A stretch of DNA of 64,000 nucleotides. It comes from Cloeon dipterum. Its lineage: Eukaryota > Arthropoda > Insecta > Ephemeroptera > Baetidae. The notes beneath the pieces were generated by a model. That model saw only the letters and a program-made list of their open reading frames with translations. It made no database searches and was not told the DNA's origin. A program made the position numbers and the translations under genes. Positions 1,724-56,800 of the stretch are shown piece by piece; within the stretch, counting starts at the first letter, position 1; every line of letters starts with the position of its first letter. Location of the stretch: positions 12,824,501 to 12,888,500 of the forward strand of contig NC_088787.1 in assembly GCF_949628265.1 (NCBI RefSeq). The letters run 5' to 3'.

Positions 1724-1737
1724 CTTAACAAAAATAT
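1724..1737. repeat. Target-site duplication, 3' copy
   Basis: CTTAACAAAAATAT, identical to 5942-5955; the base before (A versus G) and after (T versus A) differ, so the repeat is exactly 14 bp. Confidence 0.9.
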
Positions 1738-1751
1738 TTCATTCATTTCAT

Positions 1752-1757
1752 TTTATT
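1752..1757 (-). terminator. AATAAA polyadenylation signal of the retrotransposon
   Basis: AATAAA on the minus strand about 37 nt after the ORF2 stop and 14 nt before the 3' end of the element. Confidence 0.6.
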
Positions 1758-1794
1758 GGACACCATCGGTGTACAACTAAAGTCAATTACAAAT

Positions 1795-4653
1795 TTATTT
1801 ATTATAACGGAATGCTTGTGATAAAGTTAAAGGTTTTTTGACACAGTCTAGTAAATGGTACATACTAGAAAGCAAAGAATCACAATAAATACATTTACAA
1901 TTAGCGGTGACTTCGAGATGAAAACATTTATGTGAACAGACGAGGAAATGATAGCCATGAAAAGAATATCTAGTTAACATAGCCCTGTCTTTACAATTTG
2001 TATTAGTCCAATCCACATTACACATAGCAGGGGTTTCAAAAAATTTTGGGTCAATAGATTGTCGTTTAACATTCATGTTATTCAAAAACTTCTCATAGGC
2101 AATTGTAGAGGGAAGAGAGTATTTAGATTTAAGGTCATTAACAAAATAATCAGTCTGAACCAATTCATAGACAAATCTGGATTTCATTCTTTTGTCTACG
2201 CTGAGGGCTTTTTTAAAGAATCTAGATTTAGCACATTCCAACTTGTTAAGATCATTCAGAGATAAATGAGACCAAATTGCTTCTATACCATACGAAGCTA
2301 CAGGAGAAATTGCCAAGTTAAATAACTTTTTTGCAGTGGAAATAGACGATTTTGAAAGGTTTTTAATTTTAGATGTTGCAAAAATTGACGCTTTAACTCT
2401 CTTATCCAGATGATTTGAAAAGCATGTTCCAGACGTTTGGAATGTCACGCCAAGATAGTTGACAGAGGAGGAAAATTGTAGGCAATTTGTTATCTCCCAT
2501 TGTTTCTCGATTTTGCTATATCTGCCAACACCTTTATTTCTAAATTTAATGATTTGACATTTTTCCCAATTTAGAGACAGTGACATAGTAGCTAAATAAA
2601 TCTTGATATTATTAATGAGATCATTGAAAATTGTAAGATTTTCACTTAAAATAACAATATCGTCTGCGTAAAGAATGCATTTAACACCAGGATAATTCAG
2701 TAATAGATTATTGAAATCACAAATAGCATAAATAAATAGAAACGGTGACATGCAACCGCCTTGTTTGACTCCGTTACTCTGCACAATTTTCTTTGAAATA
2801 GAGATGCCATCGTTGATTGTCAGAAAATTTACATCCAAAATATCAGCAAGTAAATTTAGTTCATGAAACGTAAGTTCGTTAGTATCAATAATTTTACGGA
2901 AAACAAATTTGCGGTCTAGAGAATCGAAAGCCTTTTTTAAATCGAGAAAAAGAGCGTAAAGAGGTTTCCTGTTTACATATACTACTGATTCAATAGATTG
3001 AATTAAAGTTTCGACAGCTTTAATTGTAGATCTACCTTTGATGAAGCCATATTGATTATCAGGGATGAATTTAATAAGGCACGAGTACAGTCTCTTATTT
3101 AGCATTCGATCAAGTAAATTATATAATGAAGCTGAAATATTAATTCCACGATAGTTATTAGTATCATCCTGACTGCCTTTATTCTTAAAGAGGAGCTTTA
3201 AATTAGAGATTTTCCACTTTTTGGGAATATAACCTCGCTTAAGACAGTTATTGAAAAAATCTGTGAGCTCTAATAGAAGATGCTCACTGAGAAACTTCAA
3301 AGTCTCATTAGTTAAGAGGTCAGGACCAGGAGCCTTTTTTACTTTAAGCTCTTTAACCGCAAGGCTAACTTCTTCTTTCATGAAGTGTTTAACATCTGGT
3401 GTTCTGACCATGTTGGTTAACATATCTTTCAAATTTAAAGAATCATTGGAGCCGAGGTTCTGAATATTATAAATTTTTTCGAAATGAGTTTCCCAATCTG
3501 ACATGGCGACATTGTTTACCTTTGAAGAGTCACCTTTTTTATTTAATAATTTGTAAGATAGATGCTCAGCTTCAAAAATGATTTTTTCATCACATTTCTC
3601 GATAAATTTGTCCTTTTTCTGTTTAATTATTCTTCTATAAGCCGTCTTGACATTGGCAAAAATTTCTAGCACTTCTAATTTAATATTTTCAGAATTTGGG
3701 AGAATAGATGATGCAGAAAGTTTATCAATAAAATTTTGAAGAAATTTTAGATCTTGTTTGAGTTCAAAGCACTCGGAATCGAACCACGGTTTACTAATAC
3801 GAGACTTGCAGAGCAAATAATATTTAGATTTTTCAACAATTGTGAGAATATTTTCATAAAATATATTATTATCCTCTAAAGCTGATTTAAGTGACTCCTT
3901 TTGACCAGCCAAAACATTTGTCAAGCAATTATAATCAATCTTAAAAGATTTTACACGCTCTGCAGTTTCTAAGGAGGAAACAGGGACTTGAAACTTAAAA
4001 TTTAGTTGTCTGTGTTTTCTGATGAAAGAGTCAGTCAATTTGAAGTCTAACTGTAAAATTTTGCTAGAGCATAGAATTAAATCGACAACGCTCTCTCCAT
4101 TTGAGGCAACGTACGTGCTTTTATAAGGAAGTGTATTAGCTATACTTAATTCATTCAGGAACATAAAATCAGTGATCAAGTCATTCTTCAAATTTTTACG
4201 GTCAATGCGGCAATTGAAGTCACCGCAATAAATCATTACTTCAGGTAAACGAGCGTAACTAACTGCTTCAATAAGTTCATCCCACAAACAATCGGTGTTA
4301 ATGTTAGGCTCAAAGTAACTACCAAGGATTGAAAAATATTCAAAATTTAGAATAATAGTATTCTCAAGAGAAAAGAAGTTGACAAGTTTTCCGCATTTGG
4401 CGTTGTAATAGACTGAAACTCCCCTCATCGGGCGTCCAAAAGAGTGATTTTTTATGCCAAAGATGTGTTTAGAATAGAACCCCATTATTGAAAAATCGTC
4501 TAATAAAAATGTTTCAGTCAGAACTAAGATATCAAACTTACTAAAATAGTTATCTCCCAAAAGTTCATGAACTTTTCTCAAAGATTCTACATTCCACACA
4601 AATAATGAAATTTGAACTGACTGCACTAATTGATCATTGCTGGGGACATTTAA
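1795..4653 (-). CDS. Retrotransposon ORF2: EEP endonuclease and reverse transcriptase
   Basis: The frame is open from just inside the end of ORF1 (4665) to the stop at 1795, about 950 residues, with no early in-frame ATG. N-terminal endonuclease/exonuclease/phosphatase domain: WNVES (metal Asn), LTETFL (Glu), YCGDFNCR (Asp, Asn), STYV (Thr) and VDLIL (Asp) are present, but the usual SDH near the end reads RKHRQ, so the Asp is missing. Reverse transcriptase follows with the finger motif around KAPGPD, DLKKAFDSL, the GVKQGGCMSPFLF motif and catalytic YADDIVILS. The C-terminus has C-x-C-x2-C-x8-H-x4-C, a knuckle common in LINE proteins. It nicks target DNA and copies the RNA in place. Its frame is -1 relative to ORF1. 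Confidence 0.9.
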   Translation of the reverse strand, partial: LNVPSNDQLVQSVQISLFVWNVESLRKVHELLGDNYFSKFDILVLTETFLLDDFSIMGFYSKHIFGIKNHSFGRPMRGVSVYYNAKCGKLVNFFSLENTIILNFEYFSILGSYFEPNINTDCLWDELIEAVSYARLPEVMIYCGDFNCRIDRKNLKNDLITDFMFLNELSIANTLPYKSTYVASNGESVVDLILCSSKILQLDFKLTDSFIRKHRQLNFKFQVPVSSLETAERVKSFKIDYNCLTNVLAGQKESLKSALEDNNIFYENILTIVEKSKYYLLCKSRISKPWFDSECFELKQDLKFLQNFIDKLSASSILPNSENIKLEVLEIFANVKTAYRRIIKQKKDKFIEKCDEKIIFEAEHLSYKLLNKKGDSSKVNNVAMSDWETHFEKIYNIQNLGSNDSLNLKDMLTNMVRTPDVKHFMKEEVSLAVKELKVKKAPGPDLLTNETLKFLSEHLLLELTDFFNNCLKRGYIPKKWKISNLKLLFKNKGSQDDTNNYRGINISASLYNLLDRMLNKRLYSCLIKFIPDNQYGFIKGRSTIKAVETLIQSIESVVYVNRKPLYALFLDLKKAFDSLDRKFVFRKIIDTNELTFHELNLLADILDVNFLTINDGISISKKIVQSNGVKQGGCMSPFLFIYAICDFNNLLLNYPGVKCILYADDIVILSENLTIFNDLINNIKIYLATMSLSLNWEKCQIIKFRNKGVGRYSKIEKQWEITNCLQFSSSVNYLGVTFQTSGTCFSNHLDKRVKASIFATSKIKNLSKSSISTAKKLFNLAISPVASYGIEAIWSHLSLNDLNKLECAKSRFFKKALSVDKRMKSRFVYELVQTDYFVNDLKSKYSLPSTIAYEKFLNNMNVKRQSIDPKFFETPAMCNVDWTNTNCKDRAMLTRYSFHGYHFLVCSHKCFHLEVTANCKCIYCDSLLSSMYHLLDCVKKPLTLSQAFRYNK

Positions 4654-5849
4654 TTTAAACTTGGATCAGACCTTGCACCTGCACCTTGATCAGTCGAGGG
4701 AGCTGGAGCCTCGTTCCTAGGAACTGGAGAAAAAAGCTGACAGCAACCACGCCACCTCTTGGACTGCACTTTATTGTAAAAGTGCACCTTGATGCTGACG
4801 TCTTTCAGTTCGTTGTATAGCTGCTTCAGGATCCAAACACGGTTCATTCTGTCAGAGCCACTGCAAAGGAAAGACATCGCCACCTCTTCTAGCTTTTCTT
4901 TCTTGATTTCTTCGGCGAGCTTCTTGAAGGATTTCCTCACATTCAGAACAAAAGGCTCAGGCTTTTTGTATAACTTATAGGAGGACTTCTCTTTGGTGAC
5001 AAGATGCCAAATTGTACCCCCTACAGCTTCAGATTCTTGGGTGATGATGTCGCCAACACCCGCAACGTTGGGTTCGACGTCTGGACGACCAGCAATTTCA
5101 GCACAGTCCCGAGCGACTCCCACACCCATCACAAAATCCGACCCAACTGCGTGCACCTTGACCTCTTCTTGAGCTTCCCAGAGGTTCCCAGTATGTTCTA
5201 CGAAAGAGCATTTAGCTCCTTCAATGGCCAGAGAGACGCCGTCCTCTAGGGCTTTGTTGAGCACGGCGCACTCATCGATGTAGATGTTCGTATTGGGTGA
5301 GTCATCAGATTTTTCAATCTTCTGGAAGAGTCTTTTATGGGACCACTGTGGGCGAGGAAAATTATTCTGGAATGGAGGCGAAAGCTGCTGTTGAAGCGAA
5401 TGATGCTTCTGGTCCTTGAGACACTCTCGAACGGACCTAAGTTCGTTGCGAAGCTCCTGGAGTTGCCACTCGTAGCGCTCCTCCCGCTGTCTGGAGTCAG
5501 AAATCACACGCTCAAATTCACTTCTCATGAATAGCATATTAGCTTTGAAGGCTTCTGTGAGATTTTCAACGACGGAGGCAAGATCGACTTGCTTAACATC
5601 GCCAGATTGATCATAATGTCGAGGAATAACAGGTGTCTGAAGATACGTCTGTTGGCAAGACTGCTGAGGGGGCGGGTCCGACTGTGGTGTTTTCGCCGGC
5701 CAGGTCTGACTTCCAGAACCCGCGTGATGAGGTCCAAAGTGAAGCGAATTGTTCGTTTGGAAAGGGTTGGCGTGTTGAGCTCCCGGAAATTGCTGCAGGG
5801 GCACCTGGAGCCCTGGCACGGAGCTCTGCCACACCCTGGGTGACGACAT
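4650..5849 (-). CDS. Retrotransposon ORF1 protein: coiled coil plus OARD1/TARG1-like macro domain
   Basis: 399 residues from the ATG at 5849; the frame is open further upstream but without an ATG. Residues 1-90 are Pro/Gln-rich and disordered-looking, about 91-145 a charged coiled coil (often the trimerising part of LINE ORF1 proteins), about 215-360 a globular domain. That domain follows the order of the OARD1/TARG1 macrodomain: a GNLWEA strand, HAVGSDFVMGVGVA (equivalent to the HC-x-x-D-x-x-MGAGIA loop), WHLVTKEKSSYK (equivalent to YLITKKRASHK) and CSGSDRM (equivalent to the GCGLDRL loop), ending in a VHFYNK strand. The two residues known to be catalytic in TARG1, Lys in the TK motif and Asp in the G-x-D motif, appear as K286 and D333. 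Such domains bind ADP-ribose and some remove it from proteins; that activity here is inference. No RRM, zinc knuckle or esterase is seen. Confidence 0.8.
   Translation of the reverse strand: MSSPRVWQSSVPGLQVPLQQFPGAQHANPFQTNNSLHFGPHHAGSGSQTWPAKTPQSDPPPQQSCQQTYLQTPVIPRHYDQSGDVKQVDLASVVENLTEAFKANMLFMRSEFERVISDSRQREERYEWQLQELRNELRSVRECLKDQKHHSLQQQLSPPFQNNFPRPQWSHKRLFQKIEKSDDSPNTNIYIDECAVLNKALEDGVSLAIEGAKCSFVEHTGNLWEAQEEVKVHAVGSDFVMGVGVARDCAEIAGRPDVEPNVAGVGDIITQESEAVGGTIWHLVTKEKSSYKLYKKPEPFVLNVRKSFKKLAEEIKKEKLEEVAMSFLCSGSDRMNRVWILKQLYNELKDVSIKVHFYNKVQSKRWRGCCQLFSPVPRNEAPAPSTDQGAGARSDPSLN
4653..4659 (-). promoter_or_regulatory. Candidate -1 ribosomal frameshift heptamer T TTA AAT at the ORF1 stop
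   Basis: In the ORF1 frame the last codons read AGT TTA AAT TAA. The heptamer T TTA AAT fits the X XXY YYZ slippery pattern and touches the stop codon. Slipping back one base gives TTT AAA TTA and enters ORF2, which has no ATG near its start. The ATG overlapping the stop region (TAAATG) runs in the ORF1 frame and closes after seven sense codons, so simple reinitiation there would not give ORF2. No strong downstream stem was found by eye. Confidence 0.55.
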
Positions 5850-5941
5850 CCTTAAAGAACTCGAGAAAACAGTAAGAAAACTGCGAGCCGATACACGGGG
5901 CTGACCACACTTACCGGCGGCAAGGCTGCCAATCAAGGCTG

Positions 5942-5955
5942 CTTAACAAAAATAT
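5942..5955. repeat. Target-site duplication, 5' copy
   Basis: CTTAACAAAAATAT, identical to 1724-1737. It fixes the 5' end of the retrotransposon at 5941. Confidence 0.9.
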
Positions 5956-6012: not shown

Positions 6013-6617
6013 TCAGTATTTGGCAAGAAATGTTTGGCTCAGTTTTTGTTTGAATGCACTTGAGTTCCCATTCATACACAGATTCGGCGACAGGTTGTTC
6101 CACAGGCGATAACAAATGACTTGGAAGCATTGCTCAGGCACTGTTACACTGACAAAGGGGGCCCGAAGTCGCATTCGATGCGCCCGTGACCTACCCAAAA
6201 AATCGACATCATGCATTGTTGTTACAAGATTGCGCAAATATTGGGGACTATTATTATACAAAATTTTGTGAGTCTGGACTAGAACATGCAGTTTACGTCT
6301 ATCAGTGACATTTAATATTTGGCATTTTTTATACAACGGGGAAAGTCGCTGACCACGTTTCACTCCGAAAATATACCTTATGAGATGATTTTGCAATACT
6401 TGCAGCCTATTGATCTGCGCCGCGCTCAAGTTACAAAACACAACATCAGAGTAGTCGAAATGGGGTAGTATCAACGCTTTGACTAGTTTAATTCTGATTT
6501 TTTCTGGAGTCACATTCCTAAACTTCTCTAAAGTTTTTAACGTGCCAAAGACTTTTTGAAAAATTCGCGAGACTTGCCCTTCCCATGACAGGTATCGGCT
6601 ATACTTGCGTTTTCATT
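6013..6617 (-). mobile_element. 5'-truncated LINE fragment (reverse transcriptase C-terminal region)
   Basis: About 200 codons are open, starting after an in-frame TGA near 6617. The motifs are those of the region after the polymerase core in Jockey/CR1-type LINEs: YLSWEGQVSRIFQKV, then LVKALILPHFDYSDVVFCNLS, a leucine-rich LQVLQNHLIRYIFG, and WNNLSPN near the end. The sequence is different from the full-length element next to it. Its 3' flank (6012-5956) leads directly into the target-site duplication, so the younger element landed just behind it. It is a fossil without the polymerase core. Confidence 0.85.
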
Positions 6618-56534: not shown

Positions 56535-56800
56535 AAAATGAATGAATGAATTTATTATTAAACGCACATATGCGTGCGACACTAATCCTATACAATCAAT
56601 TCTTACAAGTCTTCGCTGCTGTTCTTAAACTAATTCTTTTTACTACACATTTCAAAATATGGTATTTTTCACACTGTTCTCCACAAAATCTACATTTACA
56701 AATCTCCTGAGGTTCATAATGGTACATCTGAGTTGCACAGAACAAATAGTGATATCCATGGCATGCAGATCGAGTTAATCGAGTAAAATAAATAAAATGT
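56535..56800 (-). mobile_element. 5'-truncated LINE 3' fragment related to the full-length element
   Basis: Minus-strand frame reads LTRSACHGYHYLFCATQ, then CKCRFCGEQ and KYHILKC, then a stop at 56596. The full-length element at 1.7 kb has LTRYSFHGYHFLVCSHK, CKCIYCDS and MYHLLDC in the same order at its C-terminus. Only the last 65 or so codons and the 3' end remain; it ends in ATTCATTCATTC-type repeats. Confidence 0.8.

Follow-up and report, generated by a model that had tools for sequence, protein, structure and literature searches.

A predicted TARG1/OARD1-class macrodomain in the ORF1 protein of LINE retrotransposons of Cloeon dipterum

LINE ORF1 proteins of types I–IV are defined by an RRM, a zinc knuckle, a PHD finger or an esterase, and type V is unclassified (PMC4120745; here and below, published work is cited from the portions consulted). 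A stretch of 64,000 nucleotides from the Cloeon dipterum genome (hereafter the window) raises the question of whether a LINE ORF1 can carry a macrodomain instead and, if so, how the domain is passed on and what it may do for the element. From the letters of the window, an earlier note had proposed a macrodomain of the TARG1/OARD1 class in the ORF1 of a LINE, with the catalytic Lys and Asp of TARG1 retained. The open reading frame in question lies in a 4.2-kb insertion with two open reading frames, ORF1 and ORF2, both open on the minus strand of the window. The features are as follows.

1724..1737, target-site duplication CTTAACAAAAATAT, copy 1, read directly in the flanks
1738..5941, minus strand, macro-LINE insertion, bounded by the target-site duplication
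1798..4662, minus strand, ORF2, 955 aa, in the -1 frame relative to ORF1
2440..3174, minus strand, ORF2 reverse transcriptase, residues 497-741 (Pfam RVT_1, 2.6e-34)
4048..4596, minus strand, ORF2 APE-type endonuclease, residues 23-205 (Pfam Exo_endo_phos, 1.4e-5; Exo_endo_phos_2, 1.8e-7)
4650..5849, minus strand, ORF1, 399 aa from the first ATG (coding 4653-5849, TAA stop 4650-4652)
4653..4659, minus strand, slippery heptamer T_TTA_AAT directly 5' of the ORF1 stop, proposed -1 frameshift site
4770..5222, minus strand, predicted TARG1/OARD1-class macrodomain, ORF1 residues 210-360, from profile searches and conservation
4851..4853, minus strand, D333 codon, equivalent of TARG1 catalytic D125 in alignments
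4992..4994, minus strand, K286 codon, equivalent of TARG1 catalytic K84 in alignments
5400..5591, minus strand, ORF1 residues 87-150, Glu/Arg/Leu-rich, possible coiled coil
5942..5955, target-site duplication, copy 2, an exact 14-bp repeat read directly in the flanks

The window element is a genuine, recently active APE-type LINE, that is, a non-LTR retrotransposon, with an endonuclease and a reverse transcriptase (RT) in ORF2, a target-site duplication, repeat copies and a truncation-like pattern among them. A second copy (L047), surrounded by AT-rich repeats on contig C8, matches window positions 1747-5935 over 4189 bp with a single mismatch (99.976% identity, blastn). The 3' 1.25 kb of the element finds at least 42 matches in the genome, the window included; such counts are lower bounds because the best 40 of 291 candidates were scored. 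Among the matches listed, 22 have at least 98% identity, and 27 of the 42 start at the 3' end of the element. Of these 27, 23 break off before reaching the far end, as expected for 5' truncation, a pattern read from match extents rather than from inspected break points. Because of the near-identical second copy, the exact target-site duplication and the matches of at least 98% identity, the macro-LINE family must have moved recently. Elsewhere in the window, 3' end fragments of a related LINE family (A6) lie at 1496-1585 on the plus strand and 56599-56778 on the minus strand, with 57% and 97% identity to the A6 ORF2 C terminus, respectively. An open fragment at 6013-6612 on the minus strand resembles by eye the C-terminal part of another LINE ORF2, with no supporting Pfam match.

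Single-sequence searches with the window ORF1 stay below significance. There is no PF01661 match up to an E-value of 10, and Pfam Macro is matched at E up to 1 in 4 of 14 macrodomain rows. In the PDB, the four top phmmer matches are all C6orf130/OARD1 chains (E 0.31-0.68), spanning ORF1 residues 210-356 or part thereof. The case for a macrodomain therefore rests on profiles. The window ORF1 has 54 matches in the genome, with identity down to about 25%, and the weaker ones mainly cover residues 212-362. A profile of group A (the window and four relatives, five ORF1s) finds OARD1 at E 5.4e-10. Consistently, group B, a separate set whose full-length ORF1s measure about 570-620 aa, finds OARD1 by itself at E 8.8e-14 (six ORF1s). 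With the pooled 14-domain profile, OARD1 is found at 3.2e-28, the next macro class (5m31) at 1.9e-12 and the PARP14 macrodomain at 2e-4. In profile-profile comparisons with three OARD1-like sequences of the same genome, group A scores 98.4% with E 6.6e-15 (hhalign) and group B gives E 1.1e-13, and groups A and B find each other at E 5.1e-22. Two loci outside the 14-row profile, L081 and L082, are matched by it at 1e-39 and 3e-40. As a control, the 5' parts of L087, L088, L089 and L090, other LINEs of this genome, were translated in all six frames, and the profile finds nothing in them up to E 10. Such strong matches make the likeness more than chance. The sequence-profile homology covers the whole domain, and OARD1 is closer than the other macro classes. 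At the level of sequence homology, the profile searches and the conservation of Lys and Asp confirm the earlier assignment of ORF1 residues about 210-360 to a TARG1/OARD1-class macrodomain; the interval flagged at the time, 4767-5205, corresponds to ORF1 residues 215-361, and its numbering of K286 and D333 is correct. Searches of phage, IMG/VR and plasmid sequences give no relative.

In TARG1, K84 acts as the nucleophile, together with D125 (PMC6397177). The equivalent of K286 is kept in all 24 rows compared, comprising 20 LINE or LINE-like and four host-like sequences (18 of 18 aligned rows and, as judged by eye, all 6 further ones), and the equivalent of D333 is Asp in 22 of 24, with Glu in A3/L013 and L085. 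Among 14 LINE ORF1s, K286 is one of 7 invariant positions out of 158; the D333 position is Asp in 13 and Glu in one, the loop 1 His is kept in 12 and the GxA turn in all 14. Most macro-ORF1 domains are 20-33% identical to that of the window. The OARD1 likeness, described earlier as holding motif by motif, stands for the Lys and the Asp but not throughout: loop 3 of the window ORF1 reads SFLCSGSD against PRIGCGLD in TARG1, so that the Pro and the first Gly are lost, and Gly occupies the position of TARG1 S35. The window ORF1 does not match the published pattern TKx(30,35)Px[IL]GxGxD, as given in the consulted part of PMC6397177. This strict pattern is matched by 6 of 24 rows (D1, D2, AD1, AD2 and two host-like sequences), hence by only 4 of the 20 LINE or LINE-like rows. 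Groups A, B and C have a degenerate loop 3; in these groups and in group E, the catalytic Lys is followed by an insertion of about five residues with a P-E-like motif.

The macrodomain is under purifying selection in groups B and AD (the latter with an A-clade ORF2 and a group D-type ORF1): dN/dS is 0.11, 0.14 and 0.14 in group B pairs and 0.09 in the AD pair, ratios being usable for 4 of 12 pairs, with the other eight, including all three group A pairs, saturated at synonymous sites. For group A, to which the window belongs, the indication is indirect. Between families A1 and A2 (pS 0.86, pN 0.19), the macrodomain is 73% identical as compared with 33-44% in the other parts of ORF1, which suggests purifying selection on the domain there as well.

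Pfam finds no RRM, CCHC zinc knuckle or other RNA-binding family, and no PHD or esterase, in the seven macro-ORF1s scanned (window, L009, L016, L028, L027, L043 and L082). In residues 87-150 of the window ORF1, the best heptad register places hydrophobic residues at 9 of 18 a/d positions versus 9 of 46 others, which falls short of deciding for a coiled coil. Other LINEs of the same genome are built differently in their 5' parts: Pfam identifies a Baculo_FP_2nd domain, which we take to be akin to LINE ORF1 C-terminal domains, in the ORF1 of L089 and a PHD finger in L088; the 5' part of L090 resembles that of L088 by eye, and that of L087 has no convincing Pfam family. Motifs resembling 2A (GDIERNPGP, GDVEIQPGP and GDVNVNPGP) are seen by eye in the first open frame of L087, L088 and L090. 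A census of RRMs in the genome lists 136 matches.

Families in two RT clades have a macro-ORF1 followed by an ORF2 with endonuclease and RT. Fifteen separate copies of group A have ORF2 immediately behind ORF1, which is partial in some of them. On the same strand, an RT lies 1479-1677 or 2296-2322 bp downstream at 12 or more of 68 macro places, a lower bound given that scoring took in the best 150 of 551 RT candidates. Each of groups B, C and D has its own ORF2 (L048, which is frame-broken, L037 and L043). In an RT tree that leaves out the RTs of A2-A5, the RTs of groups B, C and D, one row each, form one clade (support 98/96), and the A-clade RTs, seven rows, stand apart from it (support 100/100); 26 other LINE-like RTs of the genome fall outside both clades.

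The two clades appear to have exchanged their ORF1s. L081 (C8:73500-79800) and L082 (C2:24024500-24030200) combine an A-clade ORF2, 46-47% identical to that of the window over nearly its whole length, with a group D-type ORF1 (45% identity over residues 38-454 and 44% over 38-520). This likeness to the group D ORF1 runs well past the macrodomain; the ORF2 frame of L081 is open for 866 aa and then broken. In the macrodomain tree, for which the tree program warned of long branches in C1, B7 and two host-like rows, the domains of L081 and L082 join group D and host-like OARD1 (97/95) and are separate from those of groups A, B, C and E. Against this tree, the RT tree groups A with AD and B with C and D, and both groupings are rejected when imposed on the macrodomain tree (A+AD, p 1.7e-5; B+C+D, p 0.003). 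Because the two trees are incongruent, whole ORF1s must have moved between LINE clades, and on the evidence of these phylogenies the exchange can be regarded as demonstrated. CR1 and L2 elements, which have other ORF1 types, likewise show reticulate ORF1 evolution (PMC4120745). An independent capture of the domain by each RT clade is disfavoured, since both macrodomain types occur in both RT clades and the constraints are rejected. A weakly supported branch (74/66) has all 20 LINE and LINE-like rows on the same side, and the tree would be compatible with a single original capture from an OARD1-like gene. The exchange of ORF1 and the -1 junction described next go beyond the earlier note.

ORF2 lies in the -1 frame and overlaps the end of ORF1 at all 16 junctions examined. 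In 11 of 16 rows, the window included, no ATG occurs between the ORF1 stop and the endonuclease motif (WNVES in the window, LNVQG in D1), whose Asn is presumably catalytic, judging from L1 and APE1; L037 has one stop codon before this motif. An in-frame X_XXY_YYZ heptamer is found near the ORF1 end in 12 of 15 ORF1s (window, L009, L016, L020, L025, L028, L034, L081, L082, L027, L043 and L044), whereas A3, A6 and B1 have no canonical heptamer there. Because all 16 junctions are -1 and 12 of 15 ORF1s bear a heptamer, ORF2 is probably made through -1 frameshifting. Of the two other two-ORF LINEs examined in this genome, L087 has a -1 offset with no heptamer near the ORF1 end, and L089 has no frame overlap. 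The part of PMC5009743 consulted mentions frameshifting in HeT-A and gives other routes in TART and mammalian LINEs.

ORF2 could instead be reached by termination-reinitiation or from a non-AUG start, with the heptamers as a by-product of A/T-rich 3' ends. Several features speak for such a route: in A4, A5, A6 and C (5 of 16 rows) an ATG does follow the ORF1 stop before the endonuclease motif is reached, the A5 junction reads as an overlapping TAATG that could serve reinitiation, and the 80 nt downstream of the heptamers form no hairpin beyond those of shuffled sequences (z -0.86 to 1.81, in a model that leaves pseudoknots outside). Register and position argue against a by-product. The last 12 codon positions hold 13 in-register heptamers versus 15 in the preceding 7052 codons, and the other two registers hold none in the last 12 codons, where about 0.1-0.2 rows would be expected. 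When codons are shuffled so as to keep the protein, 7 of 15 rows carry a heptamer in the last 12 codons versus a mean of 1.4 (P 5e-5); only 7 rows are caught because this range excludes sites 10 codons before the stop. After this first result the range was widened from 12 to 15 codons, and 12 of 15 rows then carry one, where 20,000 synonymous-codon shuffles give 2.1 on average and 8 at most; a thinned set gives 10 of 13 rows against a mean of 1.8 and a maximum of 7. The rows are related, so these probabilities overstate independence, which is a point in favour of the alternative. However, A_AAA_AAC stands exactly 10 codons before the stop in C, D1, D2, AD1 and AD2 although the codon before it changes (CGA, CGA, ACA, CCA and GGA, for R, R, T, P and G), the A being kept and the amino acid not. 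Together with the 11 rows lacking an intervening ATG, these observations make reinitiation or a non-AUG start an unlikely explanation. A run of C after the junction in six A families is not used as evidence, since it also encodes a shared Pro.

What the macrodomain does is a matter of proposal. With slightly better than even confidence, we favour a sequence of events in which a TARG1-class macrodomain would have been captured, presumably from an OARD1-like gene, and would make up ORF1 together with the N-terminal, Glu/Arg/Leu-rich and possibly coiled-coil arm, in place of the usual ORF1 modules. Purifying selection would have retained the domain, its catalytic Lys and Asp included, and whole ORF1s have passed between the two LINE clades. 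A fraction of ribosomes would slip by -1 at the end of ORF1 to yield an ORF1-ORF2 fusion, through which the macrodomain would travel with the RT. There it would remove, or at least hold, ADP-ribose placed by host PARPs on the LINE particle, on its RNA or proteins, or on the DNA at the nicked target. Host PARPs are indeed encoded, with 24 exon-wise PF00644 matches, five of them in a row at C3:7.54-7.56 Mb. From the conserved residues, an active ADP-ribosylhydrolase carried in the LINE particle seems rather probable, and a specific counter-PARP role looks doubtful by comparison. At L1 integration sites in human cells, PARP1 and PARP2 are active, and retrotransposition drops when they are lost (PMC8535693), so taking ADP-ribose off at the nick could also serve tuning rather than defence.

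The main alternative is that the macrodomain only binds, either LINE RNA or poly- or mono-ADP-ribose at PARP-marked nicks, and does the job of an RRM in particle assembly or targeting. By itself, conservation of the Lys and the Asp cannot exclude this, as it would be compatible with a binding-only role as well as with catalysis. The degenerate loop 3 of groups A, B and C also fits a binder, as does the want of an RNA-binding Pfam family in the seven macro-ORF1s scanned, next to the Baculo_FP_2nd domain in the ORF1 of L089; moreover, an interaction with RNA is described for TARG1, along with an interactome enriched in RNA metabolism (PMC7237415). However, RNA binding leaves an invariant Lys and a near-invariant Asp unexplained among domains most of which are 20-33% identical to that of the window ORF1, and we consider a binding-only module somewhat unlikely. 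That the domain is a functionless passenger of the LINE has nothing in its favour and is very improbable given the dN/dS of 0.09-0.14 in groups B and AD and the identity profile of the A1-A2 pair. The possibility that the window holds a unique chimera, or an adjacent host OARD1 gene misread as ORF1, would draw on the OARD1-like sequences L005, L083 and L084, which have no LINE RT in the stretch examined. It is refuted to near certainty by the near-identical second copy with both ORFs, the target-site duplication and the recurrence of this gene order in many families: a similar macro-ORF1 goes with this ORF2 in other copies and families, the co-occurrence for which the earlier note had asked.

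The favoured reading, an ORF1 macrodomain that acts on ADP-ribose, has partial counterparts among known systems. TARG1/OARD1 (C6orf130) is the best PDB match over the full domain, with the Lys and Asp positions kept. Unlike TARG1/OARD1, the LINE domain sits in a two-ORF retrotransposon with an N-terminal arm and a tail added, loop 3 is divergent in groups A-C, and about five residues are inserted in A, B, C and E. As in ORF1 types I-V (Khazina and Weichenrieder; Metcalfe and Casane 2014, PMC4120745), the first ORF precedes an APE-RT ORF2; no word starting with 'macro' occurs in the text of PMC4120745. The type IV ORF1 likewise has an enzyme domain and a coiled coil and is described, in the part of PMC3905857 consulted, without a recognised RNA-binding domain, but its enzyme is an SGNH esterase of another fold and chemistry. 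The helicases in insect Jockey ORF1 and TRAS ORF2 are also captured accessory enzymes with a suggested counter-silencing role, but they are viral-type and of viral origin (PMC5563155). Among retroelements with an acquired macro domain, epsilon-like endogenous retroviruses of ray-finned fish carry a macro-domain ORF (Basta 2009, in PMC4977317); unlike the macro-LINE, these are LTR elements, and the domain occupies an additional ORF rather than a LINE ORF1.

No macrodomain LINE appeared among the papers and passages listed by searches of the open-access full-text literature, some of which matched far more papers than they listed; Repbase and subscription papers lie outside this scope. Judged against these listings, macro-ORF1 is rated as a new class of LINE ORF1. 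The short list of LINE ORF1 modules would thereby gain a new enzyme. Viruses use macrodomains against PARP-based immunity, and the macro-LINEs, if the proposal is true, would be the first sign in the open-access literature of LINEs joining the contest between PARPs and macrodomains. Furthermore, the joining of ORF1 and ORF2 in these elements is suggested to resemble that of Gag and Pol in retroviruses. A fuller version, in which the new ORF1 class is an active TARG1-type hydrolase, made both alone and as a Gag-Pol-like fusion, traded between clades and cancelling PARP restriction or damage signalling, with group E perhaps returned to the host, is plausible but falls somewhat short of even confidence. 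Several families, two RT clades and a near-identical pair of copies offer a natural series for probing ADP-ribose removal in target-primed reverse transcription.

Group E consists of short macro ORFs of about 200 aa, of which five copies were read (L026, L038, L039, L040 and L086; C3:35.1-36.0 Mb and C5:23.1-24.0 Mb) and four more were recognised by score. The catalytic Lys and Asp are kept, and dN/dS is 0.12-0.17 between the more diverged copies. Group E was at first read as a LINE ORF1, a reading dropped after no RT match appeared in the stretches examined: five macro-LINE ORF2s give no match at the four group E loci compared with them, and a general RT profile gives none at L026, L038-L040 or L086, the stretches of L026 and L086 being short. 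Group E is possibly a domesticated macro-ORF1 or a host gene cluster. At L085 (C2:15878200-15879400), a lone B-like macro ORF, in which Glu replaces the catalytic Asp, is a possible domesticated or old copy. The telomere pattern (TTAGG)5 was not found in the assembly. By their coordinates only, many macro places of groups B and D lie towards contig ends, at C2:36-37.4 Mb, C3:35-36.5 Mb and C5:0.4-1.6 Mb.
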